Assembly (NCBI RefSeq): GCF_014495845.1
Contig: NZ_CP061080.1
Location: 3,461,001-3,525,000, forward strand
Length of the DNA stretch: 64,000 bases
Direction of reading: 5' to 3'
DNA from: Aquibium microcysteis
GTDB taxonomy: Bacteria > Pseudomonadota > Alphaproteobacteria > Rhizobiales > Rhizobiaceae
A program made the position numbers and the translations under genes. The notes under the pieces were generated by a model, which had not been told where the DNA came from, ran no database searches, and worked only from the letters and a program-made list of their open reading frames with translations. This document shows, piece after piece, positions 39,646 to 47,040 of this stretch (its first letter is position 1; every line of letters begins with the position of its first letter).

Positions 39646-41100
39646 TCAGCGAGGCAGGAGTGTCGAGCCCATCAGTGCTACGTCGATGGCGCGTGCGGCC
39701 TGACGTCCCTCGCGGATGGCCCAGACGACGAGTGACTGGCCCCGGCGCACGTCGCCCGCCGCATAGAGCTTGTCGACGTTGGTCCGATAGTCGCGGTCGT
39801 TCGCCACGACGTTGGTCGAGCCGCGGCGATCGGTGTTGATCGCGAGCTTGCCCGCCAGTTCGACCGTCACGCCGGTCTCCGCCGGTCCGGAGAAGCCGAT
39901 GGCGATGAAGGCGAGATCGGCGCGGATGACGAATTCGGTCCCGGCGATCGGCTTGCGCGCCTCGTCGACCTCGCAGCACCTGACGCCGGTCAGCACCCCG
40001 TCCTCGCCGATGAATTCGAGCGTGGCGACCTGGAACTCGCGTTCGGCGCCCTCCGCTTGAGAGGACGAGGTTCGCATCTTGGTCGCCCAGTAGGGCCAGA
40101 CAGTGAGCTTGTCCTCCTTCTCGGGCGGCTGCGGCCGGATGTCGAGCTGCGTCACACGAACGGCGCCCTGCCGGAATGCGGTGCCGACGCAGTCGGAAGC
40201 GGTGTCGCCGCCGCCGACGACCACCACGTGCTTGCCGCCGGCCAGGATCGGGTCCGAAGGCCAGGCGACCGACTGAATGTCCTCGCCGCCGATGCGCCGG
40301 TTCTGCTGCACGAGATAGGGCATGGCATCATGGACACCGGCAAGGTCGCGGCCGGGCAGGTCGGACGGACGCGGCTTCTCGGAGCCGCCGCAGTAGAGCA
40401 CGGCATCGTAGCCGGCGAGGAGTTCCTCGACCGTCCTGTCGACGCCGACGTTGACACCGCAGAAGAAGGTGACGCCCTCGCCCTGCATCTGCGCCACGCG
40501 CCTGTCGATCGTGTGCTTCTCCATCTTGAAGTCGGGAATGCCGTAGCGCAGGAGGCCGCCCGGCTTCGATTCCCGCTCGTAGACATGGACCTCGTGTCCG
40601 GCACGGCCGAGCTGCTGCGCTGCCGCCAGCCCCGCGGGACCCGAGCCGATGATCGCCACGGTCCTGCCGGTCTTCCTCTCCGGCGGGAAGGGCCGCACGA
40701 AGCCGAGTTCGTACGCCTTGTCGGCGATCGCCTGCTCGACCGTCTTGATGGCGACCGGAATGTCCTCGAGGTTGAGCGTGCATGCCTCCTCGCAGGGCGC
40801 CGGGCAGATGCGGCCGGTCCATTCGGGGAAGTTGTTGGTGGAGTGGAGATTGCGGATCGCGTTCTCCCAGTCGCCATTGTAGACGAGGTCGTTCCAGTCC
40901 GGGATCTGGTTGTGCACCGGGCAGCCCGTGGGGCCATGGCAATAGGGAATGCCGCAGTCCATGCAGCGCGCCGCCTGCTTCTCGACCTCCTTGTCGGACA
41001 TCGGCAGCGTGAATTCGCGGAAATGCCGGATGCGGTCTGACGCGGGCTGGTACTTCTGCACCTGCCGGTCGATCTCGAGAAAACCTGTTACCTTGCCCAT
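39646..41100 (-). CDS. gltD: Glutamate synthase, NADPH small (beta) chain
   Basis: This 484-residue protein has N-terminal Fe-S cysteines (CMDCGIPYCHGPTGCP, CPAPCEEACTL), an FAD loop (IIGSGPAGLAAAQQLGRAGH) and an NADPH loop (VVVVGGGDTASDCVG). It passes electrons from NADPH to GltB for making glutamate from glutamine and 2-oxoglutarate. The ATG at 41100 has AGGAA five bases upstream, inside the end of vapC, and lies eight bases after the vapC stop. It is separated from gltB by a full VapBC module. Confidence 0.95.
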   Translation of the reverse strand: MGKVTGFLEIDRQVQKYQPASDRIRHFREFTLPMSDKEVEKQAARCMDCGIPYCHGPTGCPVHNQIPDWNDLVYNGDWENAIRNLHSTNNFPEWTGRICPAPCEEACTLNLEDIPVAIKTVEQAIADKAYELGFVRPFPPERKTGRTVAIIGSGPAGLAAAQQLGRAGHEVHVYERESKPGGLLRYGIPDFKMEKHTIDRRVAQMQGEGVTFFCGVNVGVDRTVEELLAGYDAVLYCGGSEKPRPSDLPGRDLAGVHDAMPYLVQQNRRIGGEDIQSVAWPSDPILAGGKHVVVVGGGDTASDCVGTAFRQGAVRVTQLDIRPQPPEKEDKLTVWPYWATKMRTSSSQAEGAEREFQVATLEFIGEDGVLTGVRCCEVDEARKPIAGTEFVIRADLAFIAIGFSGPAETGVTVELAGKLAINTDRRGSTNVVANDRDYRTNVDKLYAAGDVRRGQSLVVWAIREGRQAARAIDVALMGSTLLPR

Positions 41101-41108
41101 ACTGGTTC

Positions 41109-41522
41109 CTACTCGCGATCTGCGGTCACGTCCCGCAGCCAGTTTTCTACCTTCAGTCCGGGAACGAACCCGAACGCCCCATCGTCTGTAACCACGGTTG
41201 CACCCAGCGCCAGCGCGTGCGCCGCAATCAGCAGATCGACGCCCCCGATCGCCCGGCCATGTTCGGCGAGCCATGCCCTGGCTTTCGCGTACTCGACCGC
41301 CACGCTCGCCTCGATCGGCAGGATCGTCATCGTTTCGAGAAACTCGACCGACCGCGCCGCATTCCTGCTCGCCGGAGTCTTTGCCAGCCCGTACCGGACC
41401 TCGCACGCCACCGCTGAACTCGTCACCACCAGATCCGGATCGATTTCCCCCAGCTTGCGCCCCACCGGCCCGGACGGATCGCGCGCCACCGACGAAATGA
41501 TGTTCGTGTCCAGGAGGAACAT
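41109..41522 (-). CDS. vapC: VapC-type PIN-domain toxin between gltB and gltD
   Basis: This 137-residue PIN protein has MFLLDTNIISS (Asp5), a CEVRYGL Glu, GGVDLLIAAHA (Asp) and VVTDDGAF (Asp). The catalytic set looks complete. The ATG is two bases after the antitoxin stop. The stop is eight bases before gltD, so gltD would be read on the same transcript. It should cut RNA when not held by VapB. Confidence 0.88.
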   Translation of the reverse strand: MFLLDTNIISSVARDPSGPVGRKLGEIDPDLVVTSSAVACEVRYGLAKTPASRNAARSVEFLETMTILPIEASVAVEYAKARAWLAEHGRAIGGVDLLIAAHALALGATVVTDDGAFGFVPGLKVENWLRDVTADRE

Positions 41523-41524
41523 TC

Positions 41525-41797
41525 CTACGACTCTATGTCATCGAGCGGCAGCAACCCCTCTTCTCCCGGGTCCGTCGGAAAATCCTCGATCGGTCCGTTT
41601 TCGGCGAGCCAGGCGAGCATCGGCGAAACCTTCTTCCCGGACTTCGCCTCGATGACGAGGTTTCCGTTGGCCAGTCTCGTGATCCGCACTTCCTCACCCG
41701 GCAGTTCGAAATCCTTCGGGATTCGAATCGCCTGGCTTCGCCCATTGCGAAACAGGCGGGCGGATTTCTCGACCGCAGTTTTGTCATACGCGTTCAC
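41525..41797 (-). CDS. vapB: AbrB/MazE-type VapB antitoxin
   Basis: This 90-residue antitoxin starts at GTG 41797 with GGAGG five bases upstream. It has the swapped-hairpin pattern ARLFRNGRSQAIRIPKDFELPGEEVRITRLANGNLVI and an acidic C-terminus (PIEDFPTDPGEEGLLPLDDIES). It would bind both VapC and the perfect inverted repeat 14 bp upstream. It belongs to a different antitoxin family from the VapB at 283. Confidence 0.87.
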   Translation of the reverse strand: MNAYDKTAVEKSARLFRNGRSQAIRIPKDFELPGEEVRITRLANGNLVIEAKSGKKVSPMLAWLAENGPIEDFPTDPGEEGLLPLDDIES

Positions 41798-41810
41798 CGG
41801 CGCCTCCACC

Positions 41811-41841
41811 GCTTGGCATATGCCAGAAACATATGCCAAGC
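41811..41841. promoter_or_regulatory. Perfect 12-bp inverted repeat, VapBC operator
   Basis: The arms GCTTGGCATATG (41811-41822) and CATATGCCAAGC (41830-41841) are perfect around a 7-base spacer. They lie 14 bp before the vapB start and 19 bp after the gltB stop. The left arm also holds the 12-base palindrome TGGCATATGCCA. Position and symmetry point to the VapBC autoregulatory site. Confidence 0.75.
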
Positions 41842-41859
41842 GATCTTGTCGAACAAGGC

Positions 41860-46578
<4,719 letters not shown>

Positions 46579-47040
46579 CGTCAATCCTCCTTGGTGCTCC
46601 CCGCAAGGGGAGGAAACGTCCTCGACGGGGCCTTATACCAGCCCGCCCGGATCCTTGCACACGTCGCCTCCCGCGACCCTCGGACGCGCGCGAGGCCGAG
46701 CCTCGCTGCCGGACCGCCCACGTCTCCCCGTCGGCGGCCTCGACTTCACCGGTGCGCAAGGACCCGGACCGGCGTCGGTGCGCCAGTCCCGGTCCGAACC
46801 TACACGATAAAATAAGACAGCATTACTGTCCTAATTTCACATTGGCAGAAATGCGGCATCTGCACAAGACCGAACGACAAAAAATTCAGCGTTCCGGCGC
46901 AAGATTCGGACCTCTCACACCGAGCGAACGTAATTTTATTGCAGATATCAGTCCTGGGGACCGTTCGTGCTTATGCGGGCGAGGTGCGATGGGCCATGAA
47001 GCGAGCCAGACACACCCGACCCACCCCTTGATGGGACGGC
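46579..47040. other. 462-bp divergent non-coding region between gltB and ltaE
   Basis: I see no coding region. The half nearest gltB is GC-rich. At about 46800-46940 it turns AT-rich, with the inverted repeat at 46813-46833 and several A/T tracts (ATTTTATT, ACAAAAAATT), and should hold both promoters. The long leader of gltB (over 200 nt if transcription starts at the AT-rich part) could hold control elements that I cannot name. Confidence 0.6.
46813..46833. promoter_or_regulatory. Inverted repeat TAAGACAG-N5-CTGTCCTA upstream of gltB
   Basis: The arms TAAGACAG (46813-46820) and CTGTCCTA (46826-46833) pair with one mismatch. The surrounding AT-rich bases could form a promoter reading toward gltB. 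It looks like a dimeric-repressor site. The binding protein is unknown. Confidence 0.45.

Follow-up and report, generated by a model that had tools for sequence, protein, structure and literature searches.

A VapBC toxin-antitoxin module between gltB and gltD of Aquibium microcysteis, and the gltB-gltD junction as a probable exchange slot in its relatives

Introduction

The genes gltB and gltD encode the two subunits of one enzyme, glutamate synthase, and in a 64,000-nucleotide stretch of the Aquibium microcysteis genome (the window, to whose positions coordinates refer unless otherwise given) a toxin-antitoxin (TA) module lies between them. This raises the questions of how such a module comes to stand at this junction, whether it is held there, and what it could mean for expression of gltD.

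TA modules within operons have been described in E. coli, where mazEF lies within relA-mazG and yafNO within dinB-yafP, and where the operons are undisturbed in strains without the TA genes, according to the sections of a review that deal with these loci (PMC7167474). The same sections report that TA insertion loci accept other elements and that the mechanism of movement is unknown (PMC7167474). Transferring E. coli TA modules consist of a promoter and the genes with no terminator, and the downstream gene is co-transcribed, in the passages of PMC5120126 that describe them.

Results

Anatomy of the gltB-gltD locus

The four genes lie on the minus strand in the order gltB, vapB, vapC, gltD. The large-subunit gene gltB (41860..46584) carries GATase_2, Glu_syn_central, Glu_synthase and GXGXG domains, with an ATG 6 nt inside the called start as a possible alternative, and the small-subunit gene gltD (39646..41100) carries Fer4_20 and Pyr_redox_2. 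Between them are vapB (41525..41797), which has a GTG start and a Shine-Dalgarno sequence, GGAGG, at 41803..41807, and vapC (41109..41522), the two being separated by 2 nt. VapB is an AbrB/MazE-type antitoxin (PF04014, 30.7 bits against a cut-off of 24.7) and VapC a PIN-domain toxin (PF01850, 58.4 bits against 23.6). The original prediction, made from the letters of the window, was that a complete VapBC module separates gltB from gltD, and gene calls, Pfam matches and spacing agree with it. It also had gltD starting eight bases past vapC, and exactly 8 bases do lie between the vapC stop codon (41111-41109) and the gltD ATG. The gltD Shine-Dalgarno sequence, AGGA (41107..41110), had been placed within vapC; it overlaps vapC but straddles the stop codon (41110-41107) and so is not wholly inside.

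The window VapC has D5, E41 and D96, of which the first two are invariant and the third is present in at least 90% of 23 aligned VapCs from gltB-gltD gaps; by alignment, we take these to be the conserved acidic active-site residues of the PIN fold. Two NCBIfam VapC models match all 23 aligned proteins (E 0.001 or better), and the profile built from gap VapCs finds solved VapC chains, 3zvk, 6nkl and 3tnd among them. Against the tRNA(fMet)-specific VapC equivalog NF047863 the window VapC scores 84 bits, below the cut-off of 140 and too low to assign it that target. A PIN toxin with the acidic residues and an AbrB/MazE-type antitoxin gene just upstream thus place the pair among VapBC type II toxin-antitoxins. 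In close pairs of gap modules, vapC dN and dS are 0.007 and 0.12, 0.057 and 0.68, and 0.091 and 1.0, and vapB dN/dS is 0.08–0.16; by these ratios, close vapBC pairs are under purifying selection. We infer that the module itself is an ordinary VapBC, a PIN toxin of predicted activity with an AbrB-type antitoxin.

Upstream of vapB is a 33-bp inverted repeat, CGCTTGGCATATG-tttctgg-CATATGCCAAGCG, at 41842-41810 on the minus strand (feature 41810..41842), whose perfect 13-bp arms flank a 7-nt centre and which confirms the expectation that the module has a perfect repeat of its own. We predict that it is the VapB(C) operator, at which VapB(C) would autoregulate. A -35-like TTGTTC (41851..41856) lies 3 nt past the gltB stop codon and is separated by a 17-nt spacer from a -10-like TATGTT (41828..41833) that overlaps the left repeat arm. 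This promoter-like pair, TTGTTC-N17-TATGTT, is a weak match (7/12), and the calls of a stricter promoter scan of the gap did not include a vapB promoter. The pattern TTGNNN-N17-TATG is present in 14 of 25 gap modules, a count made without a shuffled control. No terminator-like site was found on the minus strand of the gltB-gltD gap; there is one on the plus strand, at 41120-41138.

The core of the repeat, GGCATATG-N7-CATATGCC, has a single exact copy in the 6.1-Mb genome, at gltB-gltD, and with two to three mismatches it occurs at 8 other places, against 1 for a reversed control pattern. Of the 25 gap modules whose vapB start was called, 18 have an inverted repeat upstream of vapB, and so do both modules beside divergent gltDs (L147 and L166); none was found upstream of vapB in the L109 gap module. 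The outer operator arms differ between modules yet remain complementary, and the element that the gap-module repeats have in common is a CATATG core. The predicted operator motif is also found ahead of many vapBC modules outside this slot, including ones in other phyla, and is therefore a feature of the module rather than of the slot; an operator special to gltBD is thereby ruled out. G+C-rich inverted repeats occur in 21 gaps without vapBC as well (strong ones, for example, in L028, L044 and L090), against 1 in shuffled sequence, and because those viewed mostly have no long T run they are not clear terminators.

A complete module that runs with gltBD, lacks a terminator and carries a promoter- and operator-like region of its own could feed gltD from the TA promoter. 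With such a promoter and no terminator, gltD would be read from two sources, one upstream of gltB and the other the VapB-repressed vapBC promoter, so that its expression would go up when the antitoxin is degraded.

Occupancy of the gap in related genomes

gltD was found in 142 of 151 genomes of the family, at 143 loci, and all 143 stretches were read. gltB lies upstream of gltD at 141 of these; at the other two (L255 and L256, in genomes G165 and G024 of one genus) the C-terminal part of gltB was not found within about 15 kb upstream. vapBC occupies the gap at 28 of the 143 loci, alone at 20, with ybjQ at 6 and with a GST-like gene at 2. Likely vapC remnants are present at 6 loci, accompanied at 2 of them by a GST-like gene and at 1 by an AbrB-like orphan, and alone at the other 3. 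The gap has an AbrB-DUF433-DUF5615 set at 2 loci, an AbrB-like orphan alone at 1, ybjQ at 11 and a GST-like gene at 5. At 77 loci the gap is shorter than 200 bp and has no vapBC, other sequence of at least 200 bp fills 11, and 2 have no gltB. Pfam confirmation of YbjQ, DUF433, DUF5615 and DUF4274 was on one example each; GST-like genes were named by eye, as was part of the YbjQ class (3 of 11), and the AbrB-like orphans score on the gap VapB model, below the Pfam cut-off. AbrB-like, DUF433 and DUF5615 (PIN-like) genes were seen together in the gaps of L252 and also of L027 and L115, and may form a three-part toxin-antitoxin module.

A search of the 151 family genomes with the window VapC gave 89 matches, of which 28 fall in the gltB-gltD gap, a share that overstates the bias because the query itself comes from the gap; random placement would not yield such a share in one gap. 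In a scan of named genomes, the order gltB-vapC-gltD was seen in 8 of the best 80 of 358 confirmed loci, the carriers being Rhizobium leucaenae, R. wenxiniae, Rhizobium strains BK602, RU36D and FY34, a Rhizobiales isolate, Martelella limonii and Pseudaminobacter soli. These carriers suggest that the family surveyed is Rhizobiaceae as GTDB defines it. Outside the family, at least two genomes (G070 and G268), among 199 genomes of the order, have gltB-vapBC-gltD.

The original prediction had named vapBC in the gap of all relatives, as an ancestral order, as the outcome that would speak against it, and with 28 of 143 loci occupied this is not what the family shows. The same count rules out a single recent insertion. 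The 77 short gaps supply the operon without TA genes in relatives by which a core-operon TA insertion is recognised.

Decay of the gap modules

Some modules appear to have been lost or to be decaying. Tails of VapC were recognised near gltD in L029 (E 4e-8), L136 (E 2e-7) and L083, and a VapC piece in L097 (E 2e-6), which also retains a near-palindromic GGCATATGCC-type repeat, seen by eye. Where the real gaps gave 14 matches, reversed-sequence decoys gave 2 (best E 0.0003), and matches no better than the best decoy were excluded with the exception of L113, which at E 0.002 is worse than that decoy and leans on its sister L097. Four of the six remnants (L029, L136, L083 and L097) are accordingly clear, and L113 and L059, the latter recognised by eye, are weaker. 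In the L062 gap vapC is frameshifted with the antitoxin frame open beside it, and in the L058 gap VapC has H in place of the D96 equivalent, again with an open antitoxin frame. The suggestion that the module is hard to lose is contradicted by the four clear and two weaker remnants, by the frameshifted vapC, and by the other cargo found in congeners.

Exchange between relatives

gltD was found in four of five genomes of the genus. The GltD proteins are 91–96% identical and the four gaps differ in content: vapBC in G000, a different vapBC in G001 (VapC 43–44% identical), the AbrB-like-DUF433-DUF5615 set in G003 and a DUF4274 gene in G004. DNA identity per 300 bases is 87–96% over most of gltB in G003 and G004, lower at the gltB start, and mostly 81–92% in the flanks of G001. 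This flank identity stops at the gltB stop codon and is back where gltD begins in G003 and G004; the match between G000 and G001 restarts at 41195, within the 3' end of vapC.

Synonymous divergence differs between modules and flanks. Between G000 and G001, dS is 0.57 for the gltB part and 0.56 for gltD as against 1.5 for vapC, with vapB saturated. Flank and vapC values are 0.67 and 1.66 for G000-G036 and 0.69 and 1.36 for G001-G036, and the gltB part and vapC give 0.26 and 1.47 for L103-L107, so that vapC dS is far above flank dS in four of the five compared pairs. The fifth, L036-L063, goes in the opposite direction, with 1.04 for the gltB part and 0.68 for vapC (vapB 2.82). L037 and L053 have near-identical modules and sister flanks; together with L036-L063, they imply some vertical descent or some recent transfer.

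A flank tree was built from 142 of 145 rows; L139 was left out, as were L255 and L256, the two that lack an upstream gltB. Presence of vapBC requires 24 changes on it, and among grouped rows the vapBC label changes 13 times where shuffling gives 16.6 on average (21 of 500 shuffles as low), which therefore indicates weak clustering. The VapC alignment (28 rows) rejects the flank tree with a dlnL of 820, and in the reverse test, on the flank alignment, the VapC tree is rejected by 380 lnL units. Compared with permuted labels, the flank topology has only a slight advantage in fitting VapC: 3 of 60 permutations in one comparison and 1 of 20 in another did at least as well. Because vapC is over-diverged relative to the flanks and VapC rejects the flank tree, the modules appear to have been exchanged at the gap. 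A fixed ancestral order as the full account is ruled out by the flank-tree mapping, the tree rejection and the synonymous divergence.

Other split operons

The window genome has further modules of this kind. A VapBC of another antitoxin type splits sdhA from sdhB, ending 15 nt before sdhB (L351:2748-3402; C1 about 4147659-4148313). sucC and sucD are separated by one extra small ORF and a VapBC, the latter 21 nt before sucD (L362:2724-3408), and a VapBC between ruvA and ruvB has a 4-nt overlap with ruvB (L366); further PIN-toxin pairs stand before rsmI and coaBC. The names of the flanking genes were confirmed, and genes were called by a simple codon-score script. We note an IS110-like transposase gene, identified by eye, about 540 bp behind sdhB. 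An apparent AbrB and Doc/Fic-type pair (L344:3616-4235, reverse strand, by eye) lies behind a VapBC that is itself downstream of a methylmalonyl-CoA-mutase-like gene, giving two TA pairs in tandem. At 582-950 on the plus strand the window contains a further PIN-domain match (E 5.6e-10), which the simple gene caller left uncalled.

VapBC-like pairs at sdhA-sdhB are present in the window genome and two congeners, where they were recognised by eye and alignment and not by profile. Their VapCs are 31–45% identical (dS 1.5–1.9), and sdhB across the same congeners is 98–99% identical (dS 0.16–0.27); in one pair vapB is less diverged, with a dS of 0.66. A third congener has a gap of 12 bp. The corresponding comparison for sucC-sucD in the genus covers one of five loci, as the other four stretches stop short of sucC. 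Inserts, counted as gaps of at least 300 bp, are present at 9 of 28 sdhA-sdhB and 12 of 28 trpB-trpA junctions, the 28 being the measurable among 30 loci per junction that scored best from 61 genomes; at least one long sdhA-sdhB gap (L313, 42–44% identity) may be a paralogous locus. A slot unique to gltBD is therefore ruled out. In trpB-trpA gaps we also saw ParE/RelE-like ORFs just before trpA (L303, L305 and L308, by eye; degraded in L305) and CutA-like ORFs (L285, L288, L291 and L302).

Where both neighbours of a PIN gene were called, both are co-directional in 18 of 30 cases. Native genes give 69 of 123 for those stretches and 22 of 53 for the window, and by this comparison a general enrichment of PIN genes in co-directional strings was rejected. 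Within one-direction strings, 19 modules, gltBD included, are aligned and 4 opposed (sign test, p 0.0026). A search of ten window ORFs with NCBIfam yielded no usable control core pair.

Discussion

We consider it probable that an ordinary VapBC has lodged at gltB-gltD, that the junction acts as an exchange slot, and that a promoter without a terminator can feed gltD. The basis, shown at the level of sequence, is the anatomy of the locus, the patchy distribution, the incongruent and over-diverged alleles, and the decay. The content of the junction would be replaced as a unit between lineages, whether that content is an allele of vapBC, a different antitoxin/PIN-like set, YbjQ, a GST-like gene or an empty gap, with gltB and gltD staying in place. 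The likely route would be homologous recombination using either the conserved flanks or the 3' ends that vapC genes share.

The unrelated cargo types in the gap, together with the inserts at sdhA-sdhB and trpB-trpA, are also what one would expect if operon junctions were simply permissive and TA modules from anywhere landed de novo at gltB-gltD, time and again. We regard such repeated independent insertion as unlikely. In a tree of 122 VapCs (132 columns; built without the 65-aa L097 and 20 duplicate loci) the gap VapCs cluster, the gap label changing 8 times against a shuffled mean of 31. vapC has the same direction as gltBD in all 28 gap modules, and an unsystematic look at the gaps turned up no mobile element.

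The same tree bears on a single entry of vapBC in an ancestor, followed by vertical descent, fast evolution and many losses, which would turn the remnants into losses and fit the two or more gap members in other families of the order. When 36 gap VapCs were held as one clade against 85 others (without L008, a long branch), this was not rejected (p-AU 0.83), and the one-clade tree was 38 lnL better than a quick free search; L036-L063 and L037-L053, in which the module has no excess divergence, point the same way. The VapC data nevertheless reject the flank tree, vapC dS is 1.36–1.66 against 0.26–0.69 for the flanks in four of five pairs, and dN/dS in close pairs is about 0.06–0.16, so that no fast diversifying change is seen; an ancestral resident is in our judgement quite improbable. 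Since the one-clade arrangement survives the test, the modules at this junction may form a single lineage passing from gltBD to gltBD, a point that 132 columns are too few to settle. That vapBC is retained as a selected device for tuning the GltB:GltD ratio or coupling nitrogen assimilation to stress fits the co-direction, the lack of a terminator, the 8-nt spacing and the promoter-like region with its predicted operator, but is very improbable given the 115 of 143 loci without vapBC, the same architecture at unrelated operons of the genome, and the other cargo in its place in congeners.

The arrangement at gltB-gltD has partial precedents. Insertion of TA modules into core operons is already known from E. 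coli; what is new here is the apparent repeated swapping at one slot that splits an enzyme. Like relA-mazEF-mazG and dinB-yafNO-yafP, as these are set out in the relevant sections of PMC7167474 and PMC5120126, the gltB-gltD module is a TA pair in a co-directional core operon with the next gene close by. In those sections the E. coli intercistronic modules are absent from other strains and their loci take other inserts, as at gltB-gltD, and co-transcription is reported or likely, whereas at gltB-gltD it is predicted from sequence. What sets gltB-gltD apart from the E. coli cases as described there is that the split genes encode the two chains of a single enzyme, that the inserted module is a VapBC of AbrB type, and that the same junction has four different contents in four congeners. 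The ccd system in the folA-apaH gap of E. coli O157:H7 is likewise a TA module between conserved genes with variable occupancy (PMC7167474), and its decay there is the subject of a paper cited in that review. It is ccd and not VapBC, and the portion of PMC7167474 dealing with it does not describe allele replacement of the kind seen at gltB-gltD.

The AbrB-type VapBC of Shigella flexneri, in the sections of PMC3384007 that describe it, shares the PIN toxin, the SpoVT/AbrB antitoxin and operator sites over promoter elements, and differs in that the gltB-gltD module sits inside gltBD and has a predicted operator. NtrPR, VapBC5 and VapBC10 of Sinorhizobium meliloti are likewise rhizobial VapBC systems, with autoregulation described in the main text of PMC10945364; that text contains no match to 'glutamate' or 'glt' and so no link to gltBD. 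A proteomics paper on M. tuberculosis (PMC3650330) was the one paper found to name vapBC, gltB and gltD together. In the open-licence literature we recognised no paper on vapBC within gltBD.

A wider reading, which we put forward tentatively and at somewhat less than even chances, is that junctions between core-enzyme subunit genes in these bacteria are allele-exchange sockets, at which whole TA cassettes with promoter and operator would be swapped between species by recombination through conserved flanks. The VapBC lineage of gltB-gltD would then circulate among gltBD loci, sdhA-sdhB bears the same signs, and sucC-sucD and ruvA-ruvB may follow. If true, this would be a general and testable route for the movement of chromosomal TA modules without a mobile element. 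Caution is needed in genomes such as these, where phenotypes of vapBC deletions may be polar effects on gltD, sdhB, sucD or ruvB. The gltB-gltD junction is itself a natural experiment, with near-identical flanks, differing cassettes, decayed remnants and empty sites in close relatives.
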